Shown here piece after piece: positions 7,694 through 55,574 of a DNA stretch of 64,000 nucleotides (its first letter is position 1; the number at the start of each line of letters is the position of its first letter). The stretch is from Flavobacterium flevense (GTDB lineage: Bacteria; Bacteroidota; Bacteroidia; Flavobacteriales; Flavobacteriaceae), in assembly GCF_900142775.1 (NCBI RefSeq), contig NZ_FRCC01000011.1, positions 1 through 64,000 of the forward strand. The letters run 5' to 3'. Made by a program: the position numbers and the translations under genes. The notes below the pieces were generated by a model. That model was not told the DNA's origin, did no database searches, and saw only the letters and a program-made list of their open reading frames with translations.

Positions 7694-7925
7694 CTTTTAT
7701 AAAATTAGTTTCCTACTCTTTTGGCTTTTCGGAATAGCCCCGTTTTTTACCGTGGTTGCTGGTTTCCACCTTATTGTATTTGTAGTGTAGTGGTTTTAAG
7801 GTTTATCTGTTTGATATTTAGTATTTTATATTAAATTTAGTGAAATAAAATGAGATTTAGAATGAGGATTACAAATTTTAAAAAATGCACAGAAGAATGG
7901 GACGGGATAAACCCAAAAAAATAAT

Positions 7926-43330: not shown

Positions 43331-45199
43331 TTAATCTCTTCTTGGTCTTCTTGGTCTTGGTGCATCACCAAAGCTTTCTGAACGTCTGGCAGGTCTTTCT
43401 GATGAACCACCTTCACGTCTTGGAGCTGAGCTTCTTTCGCTTCTGAAACCACCTTCTCTTGGAGCTGAATTTCTGTCGCTTCTAAAACCACCTTCACGTC
43501 TTGGAGCAAAGCTACCTTCTCTTCTTGGAGCTGAACTTCTTCCGCCAGAACTTCTTCCGTTGTGATCGCGTCTTCCGCCACCATCATTTTTAGAGATTTC
43601 AACATTGATACGACGTCCTTCTAATTGTACGTTGTTCAACACTTCCATTACTTTATCAGTGTGTTCCGGATCAGTGTTAAAGAAAGAGAATCCTTCTTTT
43701 ACATCTACTTTGAAAACGTCATCACGACCTAAGTCTAATGTTTCTTTCAAATAATCTTTTAATGACATCCAGTCAAAATTGTCTCTGGAACCAATGTTTA
43801 CAAAATATCTTGTAGCACCACTATTGTTGTTTTCTCTTGGAGCACGATCGTCTCCACGCTCACGTCTGTCACCAGATTGAGCCGAAATATCTCTTGTTTT
43901 CTTGTAGTAGTTGATGAAACGGTTAAATTCAACAGAAACCATTTTCTTGATCAGTTCTTCCTTAGTCAAACCTTCTAATACATCATTGATAGCCGGTAAG
44001 TAGTTGTCAATTTCGTGATCTACTTCAGTATCTTTAATTTTAGTAGCTAAGTGTAATAATTGGATTTCGCAGATTTCGATTCCGGAAGGAATTGTTTTTT
44101 CTTCAAATTTTTGTTTGATGATTCTTTCGATAGAAGAAATCTTGCGTAATTCGCTTTTTGTTACAATTACAATAGAAGTTCCTAATCTTCCTGCACGACC
44201 TGTTCTTCCTGAACGGTGGTTGTACGTTTCAATTTCGTCCGGTAATTGGTAATTTACTACGTGAGTAATATTATCAACGTCAATTCCACGTGCCGCAACA
44301 TCAGTTGCAACAAGCATTTGGATTTGTCTTCCACGGAAAGATTTCATTACTCCGTCACGTTGTGCCTGAGATAAATCTCCGTGTAATGCAGCAGCGCTGT
44401 ATCCGTCTTCGATTAATTTTTCGGCAATAGCCTGTGTATCACGTTTTGTTCTGCAAAAAACTACAGAGAAAATGTCCGGGTTAGCATCTGCTAAACGTTT
44501 TAAAGCTTCGTAACGATCACGTGCGTTTACAAGATAAAATTCGTGAGAAACGGTAGCAGAACCAGAGTTTTTAGTTCCTACAGTTACTTCCTCAGGGTTT
44601 GTCATGAATTGTTTACCAATTCGGGCAACCTCTGCCGGCATTGTTGCAGAAAACAACCATGTGTTTTTCTCGTCAGGAGTTGTTGAAAGGATGTTTACGA
44701 TATCATCATAGAATCCCATGTTCAGCATTTCGTCTGCTTCGTCAAGAATACAATAATTAATCTGAGTGATGTTTACTAATCCTCTGTTAATCATATCCTG
44801 CATTCTTCCTGGAGTAGCCACAATAATTTGTGCTCCTCTTTTAATGTCTCTCGCTTGTTCGGTAATACTAGCTCCTCCGTAAACTGCTACCACATTAATA
44901 CCTTTTTCGTATTTAGAGTAGTTTTTAAGTTCGTTGGTAATCTGTAAGCAAAGTTCGCGCGTTGGAGATAAAATCAACGCCTGTGTATTTCTGTTGTCGG
45001 CATCAATTTTTTGAATAACTGGAAAACCAAAAGCTGCCGTTTTCCCTGTCCCTGTCTGAGCCAACGCAACTAAATCTGTATCTTTTTCCAATAATAGGGG
45101 AATCGCTTTCTCCTGTACTTCTGACGGATTCTCAAATCCTAGATCTAAAATCGCCTTCAGTAACGATTCACTCAATCCTAATTGTTCAAATTTATTCAT
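43331..45199 (-). CDS. DEAD-box RNA helicase with DbpA-like domain and Arg-rich tail
   Basis: 622 residues. Helicase motifs in order: Q motif (FENPSEVQEKAIP), AQTGTGKTAAF (I), PTRELCLQ (Ia), TPGR (Ib), DEAD in CILDEADEMLNMGF (II), FSATM (III), VATDVAARGIDV (V) and YNHRSGRTGRAGR (VI). A DbpA-type RNA-binding domain occupies about 455-535 (RYFVNIGSRDNFDW to RINVEISK). The last 80 residues are repeats of SAPRREGGFRS type. It is a DeaD/CsdA-like helicase, probably for ribosome assembly and cold growth. Single gene. Confidence 0.94.
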   Translation of the reverse strand: MNKFEQLGLSESLLKAILDLGFENPSEVQEKAIPLLLEKDTDLVALAQTGTGKTAAFGFPVIQKIDADNRNTQALILSPTRELCLQITNELKNYSKYEKGINVVAVYGGASITEQARDIKRGAQIIVATPGRMQDMINRGLVNITQINYCILDEADEMLNMGFYDDIVNILSTTPDEKNTWLFSATMPAEVARIGKQFMTNPEEVTVGTKNSGSATVSHEFYLVNARDRYEALKRLADANPDIFSVVFCRTKRDTQAIAEKLIEDGYSAAALHGDLSQAQRDGVMKSFRGRQIQMLVATDVAARGIDVDNITHVVNYQLPDEIETYNHRSGRTGRAGRLGTSIVIVTKSELRKISSIERIIKQKFEEKTIPSGIEICEIQLLHLATKIKDTEVDHEIDNYLPAINDVLEGLTKEELIKKMVSVEFNRFINYYKKTRDISAQSGDRRERGDDRAPRENNNSGATRYFVNIGSRDNFDWMSLKDYLKETLDLGRDDVFKVDVKEGFSFFNTDPEHTDKVMEVLNNVQLEGRRINVEISKNDGGGRRDHNGRSSGGRSSAPRREGSFAPRREGGFRSDRNSAPREGGFRSERSSAPRREGGSSERPARRSESFGDAPRPRRPRRD

Positions 45200-45404
45200 T
45201 ATGTATTTTTAAAATAGGGTGCAAAATTACTGTTAATTATCCATATAAACTAATGCATTTCTAAGTTTTAATGATTTAATATCTTTTGATTATCAGAAAG
45301 TTATGTTTTGAAACTTAAAATAGCGCCTTCAGTTTTAGAATTTTAACGGTAAATAGAAGGTTTATTTTCGAAAAAACACCTGAAAAATATTGGATATTAG
45401 ATAA

Positions 45405-45983
45405 TTATTTTGTTTCTGTTAAATAAGAAATGAGTAATTGGGTGGCTTTTCCTCGATGGCTAATTTGGTTTTTTATTTCCAAATCTAAATCGGCAAAAGT
45501 TTCCTGGTAACCTTCAGGCTGAAAAACAGGATCGTATCCAAATCCTTGATTTCCTGATTTTTCCAGCGTAATTTCCCCCTTTGCAATTCCGGTGAAGAGT
45601 TGTTGTTTGCCATTTATATTTAATGCAATTACAGTTTTAAATTGTGCGGTGCGGTTATCTTGATTTTTTAAGTTTTCCAATAAAAGATTCATATTGTCTT
45701 CTGCATTACGCTGCATTCCGGCATATCGTGCAGAATAGACACCGGGTGCTCCGTTTAAGGCTTCCACTTCCAGTCCTGTATCATCGGCAAAGCAATCATA
45801 ACCGTATTTTTGAGTTACATAATTGGCTTTCAGGATGGCGTTGCCTTCTATAGTGTCAGCTGTTTCCGGAATTTCTTCATGACAACCAATGGCTTCCAGA
45901 CTTAAAAGCGTAATGGTATCCGGCAATAATTGTTGGATTTCTTTGATTTTATTTTTGTTATTAGAGGCAAATACGAGTTTCAT
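45405..45983 (-). CDS. rdgB: Non-canonical purine NTP pyrophosphatase (RdgB/HAM1)
   Basis: 192 residues, the family length. It hydrolyses dITP, XTP and related nucleotides to monophosphates, keeping them out of DNA and RNA. Motifs: [17 protein letters not shown] (substrate/phosphate loop), [27 protein letters not shown] (metal-binding Asp), [12 protein letters not shown] and [11 protein letters not shown]. No operon partner; the orphan RNA unit lies behind its start on the opposite strand. Confidence 0.95.
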
Positions 45984-46100
45984 AATAAGAGAATTTTAAA
46001 AAATATTATTTTTTGTATTAAAAAATATATAAGTATCTGTATTTCAGGTTAATTAGGTGTTAAATTATAGTAAGAAATATTTTTCTTTGAATAATAGCCG

Positions 46101-46108
46101 TATCTTTA
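46101..46108 (+). promoter_or_regulatory. -7 box of the orphan RNA unit
   Basis: TATCTTTA, identical to the box before the NDH-2 gene. Predicted start near 46112-46115. No coding frame lies downstream before the terminator. Confidence 0.45.
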
Positions 46109-46111
46109 CAC

Positions 46112-46253
46112 TGTGGTTTTGATTCATTAATGTGTGTATGTTAATTTGGGTAGAAAAATGAAAGCACACTATCAACACTTTTTAGTTAATTATAGTTGAT
46201 AATAGTAAATCAAAACCAATTTTTGGAGGGCTTTCATAGCCCTCCTTTTTTTT
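46112..46253 (+). ncRNA. Candidate structured small RNA, possibly 6S-like
   Basis: Between rdgB and the glutamate-synthase-like gene lies a plus-strand unit of about 140 nt with its own -7 box, no ORF, and a strong one-directional terminator. Its ends pair: TGGTTTTGATT (46114-46124) and AATCAAAACCA (46208-46218) form an 11-bp perfect stem. Inside, ACTATCAAC (46168-46176) pairs with GTTGATAATAGT (46195-46206) with a small bulge, and GTGTG (46132) can pair with CACAC (46165). A long closing stem, open middle and terminal hairpin recall 6S RNA. The 5' strand also contains TTTG and, about 20 nt later, TTAATTTG, close to the host promoter boxes. The family assignment is unproven. Confidence 0.6.
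46225..46253 (+). terminator. Orphan plus-strand terminator
   Basis: Stem GGAGGGCT/AGCCCTCC with a TTCAT loop and eight T. The minus direction lacks a T run, and no plus-strand CDS lies upstream. Confidence 0.92.
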
Positions 46254-46254
46254 G

Positions 46255-47763
46255 TTAATGCTGACTGACATTGGTTAGGTTATTTGGAAAATACGAATCG
46301 GAAAGATGTGCAAATTCGTCCCCACGCATAAAAATAGAAATATCAGCTTCGGCAAAACTGTTTTTTCCGGCTGCGGCTAATAATTCATTGGCAGCATGAA
46401 GTGTATTTCGATGATAATGATAAACCCGTTCGGATTTATCGGTTACCACTAAACCTTTCATCAGCATTTTATTCTGGGTGGCCACGCCGGTGGGACACTG
46501 ATTGTTGTGGCAACGCAACGCCTGAATGCAGCCCAGTGAAAACATAAAACCCCGGGCGCTGTTACACATGTCTGCCCCTAAAGCAATAGCATGTAAAACC
46601 GAATAACCGGAAATGATTTTTCCACTTCCTATGATGCGTATTTTATCCCGGATATTTAAATTGACTAATGTTTTATTGACAAATATCAACGCAGGTTCAA
46701 AAGGCATTCCCACACCATCCGAAAATTCTAAAGGTGCAGCACCTGTTCCTCCTTCGGCGCCATCAACGGTGATAAAATCAGGATAGCAATCTGCGGCAAT
46801 CATTTCGTGACAAATGGCTTCAAATTCACTGGTTTTTCCAATACAGAGTTTGAAACCAATGGGTTTTCCGTTAGACAATTCGCGTAAGCGGGCGATAAAT
46901 TCAATTAAGCCTTTCGCATCCGAAAAAGCACTGTGAGCAGGAGGAGATAATATTAATGTGTGAGGTAATACACCTCTTATTTTAGCAATTTGTTCGGTGT
47001 TTTTAGCAGCGGGTAATACACCTCCGTGTCCGGGTTTAGCGCCTTGAGAGAGTTTGATTTCAATCATTTTCACATTGGGATGACTTGCTTTTTCTTTGAA
47101 TTTTCCACCGTCAAAATTCCCTCTGTCATCCCTACAGCCAAAATATCCGGTTCCTATTTGCCAGGTTACATCGGCTCCCTGTAAATGAAAATCAGTTAAT
47201 CCTCCTTCGCCGGTATTGTGATAAAAATGACCTCTTAAAGCACCTTTGTTAAGAGCTACAATTGCGTTTTCGCTTAATGACCCAAAACTCATTGCCGAAA
47301 TATTGAGCAATGAGGCTGAATAAGGTTGTTTACAATCTTTTCCTCCCACCAGTACGCGGGGTAATTCCTCATTTACTTTGGCAGGAAATATAGAATGTTT
47401 GATTCCTTCATAATTGGTATGGTTGAGGTCTAATTGTGTTCCAAATGGTGTATTAGAATCAATGTTTTTGGCTCTCTGATAAACCAGCGAACGCTGGTTT
47501 CTTGAAAAAGGTTTTCCATCGGTAGAGCGTTCAATAAAATACTGTTGAATTTCCGGTGAGATACTTTCGAAAATATATCTGAAGTAACCTATAACCGGAA
47601 AGTTTCGGAGTATTGCGTGCTTTTTCTGGACACTATTATAAAATCCGATTGCTATAAAAACCAGCATTATTACAGAAAACAAATACGATGTTTCCATATA
47701 ATAATTAAAAAATAGCGAAATGGCTAATAATGAAATTCCAACGATGAAAATTTGCTTTCTCAT
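46255..47763 (-). CDS. FMN-binding glutamate-synthase-like membrane protein
   Basis: 502 residues. Two hydrophobic helices at the N-terminus (about 5-22 and 28-45) anchor it. The rest is the FMN/[3Fe-4S] TIM-barrel domain of GltB-type glutamate synthases: NISAMSFGSLSENAIVALNKGA, HNTGEGGL, QGAKPGHGGVLPAAK, TVDGAEGGTGAAPLEFSDGVG, GADMCNSARGFMFSLGCIQALR and the iron-sulphur cysteines in CHNNQCPTGVA. The amidotransferase domain is absent, so ammonia-dependent or unrelated redox chemistry is implied. Single gene. Confidence 0.87.
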   Translation of the reverse strand: MRKQIFIVGISLLAISLFFNYYMETSYLFSVIMLVFIAIGFYNSVQKKHAILRNFPVIGYFRYIFESISPEIQQYFIERSTDGKPFSRNQRSLVYQRAKNIDSNTPFGTQLDLNHTNYEGIKHSIFPAKVNEELPRVLVGGKDCKQPYSASLLNISAMSFGSLSENAIVALNKGALRGHFYHNTGEGGLTDFHLQGADVTWQIGTGYFGCRDDRGNFDGGKFKEKASHPNVKMIEIKLSQGAKPGHGGVLPAAKNTEQIAKIRGVLPHTLILSPPAHSAFSDAKGLIEFIARLRELSNGKPIGFKLCIGKTSEFEAICHEMIAADCYPDFITVDGAEGGTGAAPLEFSDGVGMPFEPALIFVNKTLVNLNIRDKIRIIGSGKIISGYSVLHAIALGADMCNSARGFMFSLGCIQALRCHNNQCPTGVATQNKMLMKGLVVTDKSERVYHYHRNTLHAANELLAAAGKNSFAEADISIFMRGDEFAHLSDSYFPNNLTNVSQH

Positions 47764-47910
47764 AATCTTAAAAAAAATGTTGATGAACTAATGTAGAAAG
47801 AATATATAGTCCTGTGAAATATTTTAGAAAATATTAATAAATTAAATTTAAAGATTTTGTCAGCAAAAAAAGAATATAAGTGTTATGTCATGAAAGTCAG
47901 CATGTTTTGC

Positions 47911-47918
47911 TACTTTTG
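47911..47918 (+). promoter_or_regulatory. -7 box for the hybrid kinase gene
   Basis: TACTTTTG matches TAnnTTTG, 22 bp before ATG 47941. Confidence 0.5.
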
Positions 47919-47940
47919 CTTACCCCTAAAATGATTGAAT

Positions 47941-50322
47941 ATGAAAACGGAAAGCTTTTTGGTTTTTCTAAAAAGAATAGTATTATTCTTTTTTCTGCTG
48001 GTTTATGCTAACAATTACTCGCAATATGTTTTTAAATCAGATGATTTACCAGATGTGCTTTCGCTGCAAGATTACACTTCAATTGCTGATGTAGGTCAAA
48101 AAGACCTTGATATTCAATTTGTTTTAAGAGAATTTAATACTTTAAATCCACAAGAACTTAAAGCTAAGGGAGATTATTTAGGATTCACTGAAAATAATTT
48201 TTGGTCAATGACTACTTTAGTGAATGATACTGATGAAGAGTTGCATTACTTTTTTGAGACGGCACGCCCCATAACGGATGTAGTTGAATTGTATCTTGTG
48301 AATGCCGCTACGGGAAAAATTGAAAAAGAAATTAGTGGTGACGCTATGGCTTTTGAGGAACGAAGCTATCCTAACAGAAGGAGTCTGTTTAATTTGAAAA
48401 TTAAACCGAAAGCGAATTTAAAGTTAGTTTTGCATATTAAAAGTGACGGTGAAGTAGTTAAACTGCCATTAGTTTTATATTCTCCGGAAGGTTTTGTAAA
48501 TGCTAATTCGACCGCACAGTTTGTTAACGGACTTTTTTACGGTGTTTTAGCCATAGTTGCTATTATTTATTTCTTTTTCTTTTTAGGATTGAAAGAATCT
48601 ACATTTTTATATTACAGTTTGTATGTAGTCTCTGTGGGCTTGTTACAATTTGCATTAGACGGATATTTTTACCAATACATAACTCCTGGTGGCGGCTGGT
48701 TTTCAAATCATGCGGTACTGTTTTTAGCCATAATAGGAGCATTTTTATCAGGTAAGTATAGCGAATTGTTTTTGAAAATTAAGGAGAATAGCAGTGTTAT
48801 CTATTTAATGTATCGGGTGAGTTATGCTTTGCTGTTAATTTTATTGTTTTTTGCTGTTTTTGTACCTGTAGCTCTGATTTATTGTTACCAAATAGTAAAC
48901 TTGTTAGTTTTAGTTTTTTTATTTCTGATCGTTTTTTCAATAGGATATTTATACTACAGTAAGAAAGCTGTTGATTCTTTGTTTATCATCGGTATTTTCT
49001 TTTTGATTCTGGGTTTTGGTGTTTTTATTCTCAATAATCTGGGATTGGTGGAGAATACTTTTGTGACTCAGAATAGTTCTAAAATTGGTACTGGTTTAGA
49101 AGTAATTTTTCTTTCTCTTTCAATGTCAAATCTGATTCGGAAATTAAAAAATGAAAAAGAAGAATTTAACCGGATTGCTTTAGTGAAGTCGGAAGAAATG
49201 AATGAGTTAAAATCATATTTTTTATCGAATATCAGCCATGAATTGCGTACACCGCTGAATGCGATTAGTAATTTGATTGAAACTGTTTCCGGTGCCGTCA
49301 AAGATAAAAAAGAGAAGAAAAACTGTGAGGTTATAAAATATTCAGCTCAGAGTTTATTGGGGTCTGTAAACGATATATTGGATTTTTCTAAAATTGAAAA
49401 AAATGAATTAAGGCTGGAGAAAAAAGAGTTTGATTTACTGACGGTTTTAAAAAATGTTAAGTCCAGTGCTAAAATCAAATCAAAAGATAAAGGGCTTAAG
49501 TTCCATTTTACTAAGCCGGATACTCCTGTTTCAACTCTTGTGGGTGATGAGAACAGATTGTTTCAGATTATCAACAATGTTTTAAATAATGCTATAAAAT
49601 TCACTTCTCACGGCTTTGTTGATTTCAAGGTGGAAGTGGAAAAAAAATCAGATACTATTGCAAGTGTAAAATTGATTGTTACCGATTCAGGTGTTGGCAT
49701 AGCCAAAGAAAAAATGAATAGCTTGTTTGATTCTTTTTCTCAGCACAGTATTGATAATAAACGAAAATTTGGAGGACTGGGATTAGGACTTTACATTGTG
49801 AAAACCTTAGTGGACAAGCAAGGAGGACTTGTCGAAATTCAAAGTGAAATCCATAAAGGAACAGTTTGTACCATTGTAATTGATTATGAAATCGCAGCCA
49901 AAAAGAAAATCCCGGTTGCGGTTGCTGACTCAGCAGTTTGCGATTTAGGTGGTAAAACTATTTTGGTTGTAGAGGATAATGCAATGAATCAAATGGTCAT
50001 TAAAATGATTACTAAAAAGTGGTTGAATACCACAATTGTGTATGCCAATAATGGGAAAGAAGCTTTAGATGCTTTTGCAAATAATACTTTTGATTTAGTT
50101 TTAATGGATCTTCAAATGCCTGTTATGGACGGTTATGAAGCTACCATTGCCATAAGGAATGGAAAAGTGGGTGAACAAAACGCAAACATTCCTATTGTTG
50201 CCGTAACTGCAGATGTGATGGAAAGCACTCAATTGCGTGTCAAGGAAATAGGAATGAATGATTATTTGTCTAAACCTATTAGTAAAGAATTATTGTATCA
50301 GGTAGTTAAAAAGTTAATTTAA
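47941..50322 (+). CDS. Hybrid sensor histidine kinase with 7TM-DISM sensor
   Basis: 793 residues from ATG 47941 (an in-frame TTG at 47935 is less likely). Signal/anchor at the N-terminus, a periplasmic DISM-type beta domain (about 30-170), seven membrane helices (about 185-385), then HisKA with the phospho-His in NISHELRTPLNA (His433), HATPase_c (NNVLNNAIKFTSHG, VTDSGVGIAKEKMNSLFDSF, GGLGLGLYIVKTLV) and a receiver domain with phospho-Asp723 (DLVLMDLQMPVMDGYEA). A complete phosphorelay input; no Hpt protein or regulator lies beside it. Its end overlaps the convergent NYN gene by 4 bp. Confidence 0.93.
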   Translation: MKTESFLVFLKRIVLFFFLLVYANNYSQYVFKSDDLPDVLSLQDYTSIADVGQKDLDIQFVLREFNTLNPQELKAKGDYLGFTENNFWSMTTLVNDTDEELHYFFETARPITDVVELYLVNAATGKIEKEISGDAMAFEERSYPNRRSLFNLKIKPKANLKLVLHIKSDGEVVKLPLVLYSPEGFVNANSTAQFVNGLFYGVLAIVAIIYFFFFLGLKESTFLYYSLYVVSVGLLQFALDGYFYQYITPGGGWFSNHAVLFLAIIGAFLSGKYSELFLKIKENSSVIYLMYRVSYALLLILLFFAVFVPVALIYCYQIVNLLVLVFLFLIVFSIGYLYYSKKAVDSLFIIGIFFLILGFGVFILNNLGLVENTFVTQNSSKIGTGLEVIFLSLSMSNLIRKLKNEKEEFNRIALVKSEEMNELKSYFLSNISHELRTPLNAISNLIETVSGAVKDKKEKKNCEVIKYSAQSLLGSVNDILDFSKIEKNELRLEKKEFDLLTVLKNVKSSAKIKSKDKGLKFHFTKPDTPVSTLVGDENRLFQIINNVLNNAIKFTSHGFVDFKVEVEKKSDTIASVKLIVTDSGVGIAKEKMNSLFDSFSQHSIDNKRKFGGLGLGLYIVKTLVDKQGGLVEIQSEIHKGTVCTIVIDYEIAAKKKIPVAVADSAVCDLGGKTILVVEDNAMNQMVIKMITKKWLNTTIVYANNGKEALDAFANNTFDLVLMDLQMPVMDGYEATIAIRNGKVGEQNANIPIVAVTADVMESTQLRVKEIGMNDYLSKPISKELLYQVVKKLI

Positions 50323-51116
50323 CTATAACGAAGACGTACATAAACGTGTTTAATCCCTTTTTTATCTGAATCTCTTTCATCTATTTCAAGAATGTCAGTT
50401 AGTGATTTTAACATGGGAGTCAGTTTTGTAAAGCCGTAATTTCGTGGGTCAAATTCGGGTTTTTTCTTTACAATCAGGTTTCCTACATCGCCCAGAAAAG
50501 CCCAGCCACTATCATCGGCAATGTCGTCAATAGAATCTTCGATAAGATCCATGGTAGGTTCGTCAATTTTATTTAATGGTTTTTGAGTCGGTTTTTCGGT
50601 GGCTTTAATAGTGGTTTTTTCCACTGGTTTTTTAGAATCCACTACAGTTTTAGTGGTTTTTTTCTTGATAGCGCCATCTAAAACTTCGATAAATATAAAA
50701 CGGTCGCAGGCGCTGATAAAAGGTTTTGGTGTCTTTTGTTCACCAATTCCAATCACTTTCATGCCTGATTCTCTTAAACGAATCGCTAAACGGGTAAAAT
50801 CGCTGTCACTGGAAACAATACAAAAACCGTCCAGTTTCCCAGAATACAGTAAGTCCATAGCATCGATAATCAACGCAGAATCGGATGAGTTTTTGCCTGT
50901 AGTATAGCTGTATTGTTGGATAGGAGTGATGGCGTGTTCCAGTAAAACACCTTTCCATCCATTGGCATTGGGTTTAGTCCAGTCGGCATAGATACGTTTT
51001 GTGGTTGGGGTACCGAATTTAGTAATTTCTTCCATCATTCCTTTTACATTGCTGTACGGAACATTATCGGCATCAATTAATACGGCTAGTTTGAGTTCTT
51101 TTGTATTTTGCGGCAT
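50319..51116 (-). CDS. NYN-domain RNase with C-terminal LOTUS domain
   Basis: 265 residues. The NYN (PIN-like) nuclease domain spans about 8-150 with its acidic residues in LAVLIDADNVPYSNVKGM, SSDSALIIDAMDLLYSG and CIVSSDSDFTRLAIRLRESG. A Lys/Thr/Pro linker (about 152-195) leads to an OST-HTH/LOTUS domain (GWAFLGDVGNLIVKKKPEFD to HVYVRLRYS). This pairing suggests RNA cleavage with RNA (G-quadruplex-type) recognition, known only by family analogy. Convergent with the kinase gene. Confidence 0.88.
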   Translation of the reverse strand: MPQNTKELKLAVLIDADNVPYSNVKGMMEEITKFGTPTTKRIYADWTKPNANGWKGVLLEHAITPIQQYSYTTGKNSSDSALIIDAMDLLYSGKLDGFCIVSSDSDFTRLAIRLRESGMKVIGIGEQKTPKPFISACDRFIFIEVLDGAIKKKTTKTVVDSKKPVEKTTIKATEKPTQKPLNKIDEPTMDLIEDSIDDIADDSGWAFLGDVGNLIVKKKPEFDPRNYGFTKLTPMLKSLTDILEIDERDSDKKGIKHVYVRLRYS

Positions 51117-55348: not shown

Positions 55349-55440
55349 CAAATATATTCATTAATTCCTTACAAACATTCCGCTCATTGGTTGATTTTGA
55401 AAACTATTCTTGTTTCTTAGCCCTGATGGAAGCGGCATCC
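55349..55440. repeat. Right-flank repeat, copy 2
   Basis: Counterpart of 54351-54443, ending AGCCCTGATGGAAGCGGCAT, directly before the stem-loop at 55440. Confidence 0.8.
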
Positions 55441-55474
55441 TCTTGTGGCTTGTTTCTTTAACAAGGCACAAGAG
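55440..55474. repeat. 15-bp stem-loop next to the right-flank repeat
   Basis: CTCTTGTGGCTTGTT / AACAAGGCACAAGAG with a five-base loop and one mismatch (14 of 15 paired). It is flanked by AGCGGC and GAGCGAACAGCGGG. I recall similar GCGG-bordered stem-loops repeated in Flavobacterium intergenic DNA. Confidence 0.75.
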
Positions 55475-55574
55475 ATAGAGCGAACAGCGGGTGAAAAAGG
55501 GAATGAAATGCACTTACGGAAATAGCTCCTAAAAATAAATTTAGCTTAAAAGCCCTTAATAAAATTTAAATAAT

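Follow-up and report, generated by a model that had tools for sequence, protein, structure and literature searches.

A folded small RNA of Flavobacterium flevense belongs to a multi-copy family with a probable regulatory role

Results

A promoter-to-terminator unit beside rdgB

The window is the whole stretch of Flavobacterium flevense DNA that was analyzed, 64,000 nucleotides in length. A gap of ~270 bp between two of its minus-strand genes is occupied by a promoter-to-terminator unit that runs on the strand opposite to both (Table 1). This unit had been proposed in an initial annotation of the DNA, and it is real, with its parts as described there. A scan of 44000-48000 reports the window terminator on the plus strand only, in line with its description as one-directional. 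It has the most G-C pairs (6) among the 6 terminator-like sites of this region, and shuffles of the region contain a mean of 3.2 such sites. No ORF of ≥50 aa overlaps the unit (46101-46253). The first repeat of a predicted operator lies 65 nt 5' of the RNA body. Two other RNAs in the window have Rfam matches above the gathering score: Flavo-1 RNA at 55415-55498 on the plus strand (57.2 bits) and DUF805 RNA at 7706-7774 on the minus strand (69.8 bits).

Table 1. Features of the small-RNA unit and its neighbors in the window
Feature	Position	Strand	Basis
rdgB (Ham1 family)	45405-45983	-	neighbor of unit
Operator (predicted), direct repeat GTTAATTAGGTGTTAAA = GTTAA-N6-GTTAAA, 11-bp period	46048-46064	+	exact match
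-7 promoter element TATCTTTA	46101-46108	+	from sequence
sRNA body, three-way junction	46113-46216	+	family model R1 match, 80.2 bits, E = 5.2e-10
P1, 5' strand (11 bp, one-base interruption, 4 bp)	46114-46129	+	MFE fold of window unit
Hairpin P2; outer stem 46132-46137 with 46164-46169	46132-46169	+	MFE fold; base covaries
Hairpin P3; 46170-46176 with 46195-46201	46170-46201	+	MFE fold; covaries
P1, 3' strand	46203-46218	+	MFE fold
Intrinsic terminator, 8-bp stem + T8	46225-46253 (stem-loop 46225-46245)	+	terminator scan
Glutamate-synthase-domain protein gene	46255-47763	-	other neighbor of unit

The whole unit folds at -40.5 kcal/mol compared with -23.8 ± 3.4 kcal/mol in 200 dinucleotide shuffles, none of which folds as well (z = -4.90). 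Folding of the window body without the terminator is weaker (z = -1.32). The 11-bp perfect stem that had been noticed at the ends of the RNA is present, with 46114-46124 paired to 46208-46218. The remainder of the molecule is not the long rod with an open centre that had been envisaged; the MFE structure shows P1 enclosing two hairpins instead.

Distribution of the RNA in Flavobacterium

BLASTN was used to search 150 relatives, and 17 were matched, the window's own genome included. The search yielded 26 loci, 17 of which have rdgB, and several of the latter have tandem copies. A covariance model of the RNA body (R1) built from 17 copies matches 80 of 398 sampled Flavobacterium genomes at E ≤ 0.001. 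Eighty stretches from 75 other genomes were examined; the fetched stretches leave out the matching genomes G079, G203, G270 and G384 and a few further matched contigs in G174, G282 and G427. R1 has 159 matches at E ≤ 0.01 in the 81 stretches (these 80 and the window), and the best 150 of the 159 were aligned and analyzed.

The copies adjoin rdgB in 64 of the 80 stretches. Among the 16 stretches that lack rdgB, L097 carries the glutamate-synthase-like gene of the same neighborhood, and L089 and L112 carry a relative of the window gene at 50319-51116. A second home recurs in 7 others of the 16 (L109, L120, L127, L128, L130, L131 and L135), where the RNA lies beside a maleate-isomerase-like or OsmC-like gene, functions that were assigned by eye from translations. 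The second-home copies are a short form of the RNA with a body of 91-93 nt. Extra copies beside a gene for a 169-aa protein were seen in L062, L069 and L105, and the same genomes also have the rdgB array.

An exact-pattern search of GTDB contigs returned 42 stretches, of which 35 have titles naming Flavobacterium or Flavobacteriaceae, 4 are titled Bacteroidetes bacterium and 3 have other names. The non-pathogenic species F. frigoris, F. xanthum and F. degerlachei are among the carriers named. Records titled as Klebsiella pneumoniae and Sphingobacterium thalpophilum MAGs (L160, L170 and L176) carry the RNA. L160 and L170 match in length the same-genus contigs L080 and L100, which have rdgB beside the RNA, and the Klebsiella and Sphingobacterium titles are probably wrong. 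A second model, R2, found the window's own copy alone in 397 genomes drawn from the family Flavobacteriaceae, a search that used strict filters and scored ~10 candidates per genome. The RNA family thus far appears confined to Flavobacterium.

Thirty genus genomes without an R1 match were checked, and rdgB is present in all 30. The RNA is absent from 27 of the 27 rdgB loci scanned in these genomes with filters off, indicating that many members of the genus can do without it. The operator repeat was found in 0 of the 30 genomes within 900 nt upstream of rdgB on the strand of the RNA.

The location of the unit in a ~270-bp gap between two minus-strand genes raises the alternative that it is a cis element or bare terminator of rdgB or of the glutamate-synthase-like gene and gives rise to no separate RNA. 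The strand of the unit is opposite to that of both genes, however, and the tandem copies repeat its -7 box, operator and terminator as well. Copies also occur at other loci, for example in L062, L066, L069 and L127, and we regard a cis element as improbable. Still harder to credit is a gene for a small protein or a part of a type I toxin-antitoxin system, which would find its support in the short ATG frames that can be read in the window copy. The longest frame in 62 diverse units has a median length of 16 aa and a maximum of 44 aa, and one-base indels fall within the body among copies of the window's subtype (L002, L004 and L005). A small ORF was rejected on the basis of these frame lengths.

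A three-way junction with covarying stems

P1 with exactly two hairpins is the unconstrained MFE structure of 123 of 146 distinct bodies. Folding of the body alone in 62 diverse copies gave a mean z of -2.32 and a median of -2.30, with 52 of the 62 below -1. The three-way junction model came from single-sequence folds and a 52-sequence alignment and was tested afterwards. Alignment A3 contains 47 of the 52 chosen sequences, the exclusion of 5 poorly aligned ones favoring structure, and in it 90.4% of the cells of the named structure are paired compared with 87.0 ± 0.4% in shuffles. Double changes, in which both partners are substituted, affect 17 pairs in A3 compared with a shuffle mean of 8.7, and 0 of 500 shuffles are as high. 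P1 cells are 97.2% paired over the 47 sequences. Slid registers on A3 give ≤52.0% pairing and ≤9 double-change pairs.

The two hairpins were analyzed with a motif-anchored alignment, in which the arms are set by sequence motifs rather than by pairing and all 62 sequences are kept. P2 and P3 beat all 500 shuffles in both pairing (79% and 82%, respectively) and double changes (23 and 19). Slid registers reach 22 double changes for P3 at +1 and +2 and for P2 at +2, and their pairing is at most 55% compared with the 79% and 82% of the named registers. The covarying bases in relatives that the initial annotation had suggested looking for are found in P2 and P3 of Flavobacterium copies. RNAalifold recovered P1 only from the first 17-sequence alignment and a poor P2 from the 47-sequence alignment. 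The structure was derived in part from the tested sequences, and related sequences can exceed shuffles of this kind, so the evidence for a conserved three-way junction with covarying stems, although strong, falls short of proof.

Most of the conserved bases either pair or sit at the junction. Those that are unpaired form the junction linkers, part of the linker between P1 and the terminator, and the terminator loop. There is no long conserved unpaired seed among the conserved bases.

The RNA is distinct from 6S RNA

The initial annotation had interpreted the unit as a structured small RNA, possibly 6S-like. The first part stands as a small structured RNA gene that is conserved with covarying pairs in relatives, and the second does not. 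A 6S-like RNA would be predicted to bind RNA polymerase through promoter mimicry, and the words that suggested it, TTTG at 46118-46121 and TTAATTTG at 46141-46148, are literally present in the window copy, 19 nt apart. TTTG-N19-TTAATTTG is found in all 8 copies of the window's subtype, but it is limited to these 8 of the best 150 of 159 matches, and the mimicry is not a conserved property of the family. The Rfam 6S and 6S-Flavo covariance models have no match at the gathering score, and no 6S family is among the 14 Rfam matches at E ≤ 10 in 45960-46300. These weak matches, which include sRNA71, ncS025, the L20 leader and TarB, all score well short of the gathering thresholds and appear to be chance hits. 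The window's genome has a 6S-Flavo match of its own on contig 33 (RF01685, a model of 108 positions), which scores 85.4 bits against a cut-off of 85. The 6S layout is an extended hairpin opened by a large bubble at its center, and the conserved fold of this family is a three-way junction instead. The Rfam result, the 6S-Flavo match elsewhere, the rarity of the mimic and the fold together rule against 6S identity, and a 6S-like polymerase-binding RNA is very improbable.

Tandem arrays and loop subtypes

Tandem arrays reach 7 copies as counted by R1 matches (L081, L108 and L110), and the spacing in arrays of ≥3 aligned copies is mostly 257-364 nt. Several paralogous copies per genome are expected of sibling sRNAs, and ≥2 aligned copies are present in 36 of 76 genomes. 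The other 40 of the 76, including the window's own genome, have one. Copies lie close to contig ends or to a run of N in L089, L090, L100 and L128. Tandem copies seem to break assemblies at such places, and so the copy numbers may be lower bounds.

Of 110 copies in multi-copy genomes, 89 resemble some copy from another genome more than they resemble any sibling. Loop subtypes, which account for 89 of the 150 copies, were defined by sequence words picked by eye within those same copies. Sixteen genomes carry subtype C, 11 carry B, 8 carry E and 7 carry F, with one copy in each; subtype D has 35 copies in 19 genomes. The window copy belongs to subtype E. Two or more loop subtypes are combined in 16 genomes.

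The main rival to a role in regulating mRNAs is titration: the conserved junction of all the copies together would sequester an RNA-binding protein, with the loops being of minor importance. Titration would be consistent with conserved bases that lie at the junction and in P1, with conserved unpaired stretches that are short, and with a tandem dosage of up to 7 copies. The recurrence of several loop subtypes across species is not needed for pure titration, however, and the 40 of 76 genomes with one aligned copy also argue against it. We consider titration unlikely, yet it deserves serious attention.

An 11-bp direct repeat upstream of the RNA

Of the 150 copies, 149 have a loose -7-like box in the 16 nt that precede the body, and 122 have the strict form TANNTTTG. 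A T run of ≥4 is found 12-50 nt after the body in 146 of 150 copies. As would be expected of sibling sRNAs, nearly every copy appears from its sequence to have its own promoter and terminator.

The new element described here is an 11-bp direct repeat, GTTAA-N6-GTTAA, upstream of the RNA copies. It is present in 105 of 135 distinct upstream regions (130 nt each, <80% alike), and the commonest other period is seen in 4. The first repeat is at -67 to -62 relative to the body in 102 of the 135. Direct repeats with an 11-bp period are what OmpR/PhoB-class response regulators bind, and the PhoP boxes of Bacillus subtilis are TTAACA repeats. The 11-bp period and the fixed distance from the promoter are those of an OmpR/PhoB-type operator, and we infer that the predicted operator answers to a response regulator of this class.

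The longer form GTTAA-N6-GTTAAA occurs 118 times in 611,381 bp of fetched stretches and lies upstream of 109 of the 150 analyzed copies. The window operator is its only occurrence in the 64-kb window; the whole 4.23-Mb genome has 8, fewer than the 25 of the reversed control. One of the 8 sites is that of the sRNA, one is inside a coding frame and six others precede genes. Of these six, one shares the orientation of the sRNA site and precedes a TetR-like frame by 87 nt, and five are 48-109 nt before a start codon in the TTAAC orientation. The genes behind the five TTAAC sites were identified by eye as two SusC-like genes, a MoxR-like ATPase, an SDR enzyme and one unknown. In L184 and L186, both from this genome, the TTAAC-oriented repeats precede genes for SusC-like receptors by 48 and 109 nt. 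The 8 exact operator matches in the window's own genome do not make up a clear regulon.

The pstS gene was used for comparison, with 25 of 30 loci analyzed (L191-L215) and five weak matches excluded. TTAA[CT]-N6-TTAA[CT] is present upstream of pstS in 14 of the 25 loci, and the only other periods between 7 and 16 are 7 and 15, seen once each. The pstS repeat precedes a TACTTTTG-like -7 box. This element is the probable PHO box of Flavobacterium, and such repeats were also seen by eye before pstS and pstC in the window's own genome. The sRNA repeat has the same half-site and period as the pstS repeat, but it is on the other strand and farther from the promoter. It reads GTTAA where the pstS repeat reads TTAAC, and 0 of the 25 pstS loci have a repeat in the orientation of the sRNA. 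The regulator may not be PhoB because the sRNA repeat is opposite in orientation and farther upstream; PhoB itself is a possible regulator of the sRNA.

Discussion

A working model of the family

The unit at 46101-46253 appears to be a real small-RNA gene and one copy of a folded RNA family in Flavobacterium, probably with a regulatory role. The reading we favor, with some confidence, is a family of sibling trans-acting sRNAs that have a fixed scaffold and are switched by an OmpR/PhoB-type regulator. Weighing against it are the reversed orientation and greater distance of the repeat relative to pstS, the rarity of the operator pattern in the window's genome, the double-change counts of slid registers, the lack of a long conserved unpaired seed, the choice of subtype words by eye and the absence of the RNA from the 27 scanned rdgB loci. 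The unit would be one gene of a Flavobacterium family of independently transcribed, ~140-nt trans-acting regulatory RNAs, and the typical gene has a predicted operator, a -7 promoter and a terminator of its own. In the predicted RNA, a fixed three-way junction (the P1 closing stem, P2 and P3) precedes the terminator hairpin. Tandem duplication has taken place mostly between rdgB and its upstream neighbor, and many copies belong to loop subtypes retained across species. A response regulator, possibly PhoB, would set the level of the array. The common junction would be a shared platform for folding, stability and protein binding, and the subtype-specific P2 and P3 loops would pick different mRNA targets. 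From a shared scaffold whose loops have diverged but been kept, we infer sibling sRNAs that share a partner and differ in their targets. Bacteroidota is regarded as a phylum poor in Hfq.

A more specific version of the sibling-sRNA model is a tandemly amplified riboregulator array in which loops are swappable on the conserved junction scaffold and the copies are placed under a PhoB-class operator. This version is tentative, and we would not expect it to hold in full. If it is true, a group of sRNAs, each with its own targets, would be controlled by phosphate or envelope signals.

To our knowledge, regulatory RNAs have received little study in Flavobacterium. A structured family that is conserved, present in multiple copies and preceded by a clear operator offers a direct way in to a regulator, a partner protein and targets. 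The range from 0 to 7 copies and the several loop subtypes make a natural series for asking why bacteria keep tandem sibling sRNAs.

Comparison with known systems

The RNA has no Rfam family at the gathering score and none that is credible at E ≤ 10. The literature on Flavobacterium sRNAs, Rfp18 and multicopy sRNAs, taken without the supplementary tables of PMC9723704 and PMC5395568, contains no description of the family. 6S-Flavo RNA (RF01685) resembles it as a structured RNA of Flavobacteria, and the window copy has promoter-like words, but the window RNA has no match to the 6S-Flavo covariance model and its fold differs. The PHO boxes of the OmpR/PhoB class resemble the predicted operator in being 11-bp direct repeats with the half-site TTAAC, as upstream of Flavobacterium pstS. 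The sRNA repeat differs in being oppositely oriented relative to the promoter and at approximately -64/-53 rather than close to the -7 box. The available part of the paper on Bacteroides fragilis PhoB gives no box sequence (PMC3547664).

Rfp18 of F. psychrophilum is described as a strongly folded small sRNA with wide conservation across the genus; F. columnare expresses a homologue, and mRNA levels of two metalloproteases are lower in the deletion mutant (PMC9723704). Rfp18, Rfp11, Rfp13 and Rfp15 are like the present RNA in being small, strongly folded and conserved in other species, as described in that paper (PMC9723704). Compared by description only, Rfp18 differs in that tandem copies and an operator are unmentioned in the available text (PMC9723704). 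Rfp18, known here by description only, may or may not be the same RNA as this family. Genome G333, a candidate for F. psychrophilum, is not collinear with that species: dxs and gldN are 272 kb apart in it compared with ~527 kb in the published table (PMC9723704). RNA-seq of F. columnare ATCC 49512 yielded candidate sRNAs, none of which matched Rfam (PMC5395568). These candidates, also known here by description, are from the same genus and have promoters or terminators (PMC5395568).

FopS of Bacteroides thetaiotaomicron is ~65-70 nt with 14 copies, a 5' seed and canonical sigma promoters (PMC11697453). FopS and GibS are described as multicopy paralogous sRNAs of a Bacteroidota genus with their own promoters, and in this they resemble the Flavobacterium RNA (PMC11697453). 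Compared with that description, the Flavobacterium RNA differs in having ~140 nt, tandem copies, a three-way junction and an operator repeat. The conserved unpaired 5' seed of the FopS type is missing from the Flavobacterium RNA, in which body positions 4-11 are a P1 strand with a mean unpaired probability of ≤0.07. As far as the published descriptions go, FopS is the nearest multicopy sRNA family of the phylum found, and the Flavobacterium family differs from it in size, layout and seed.
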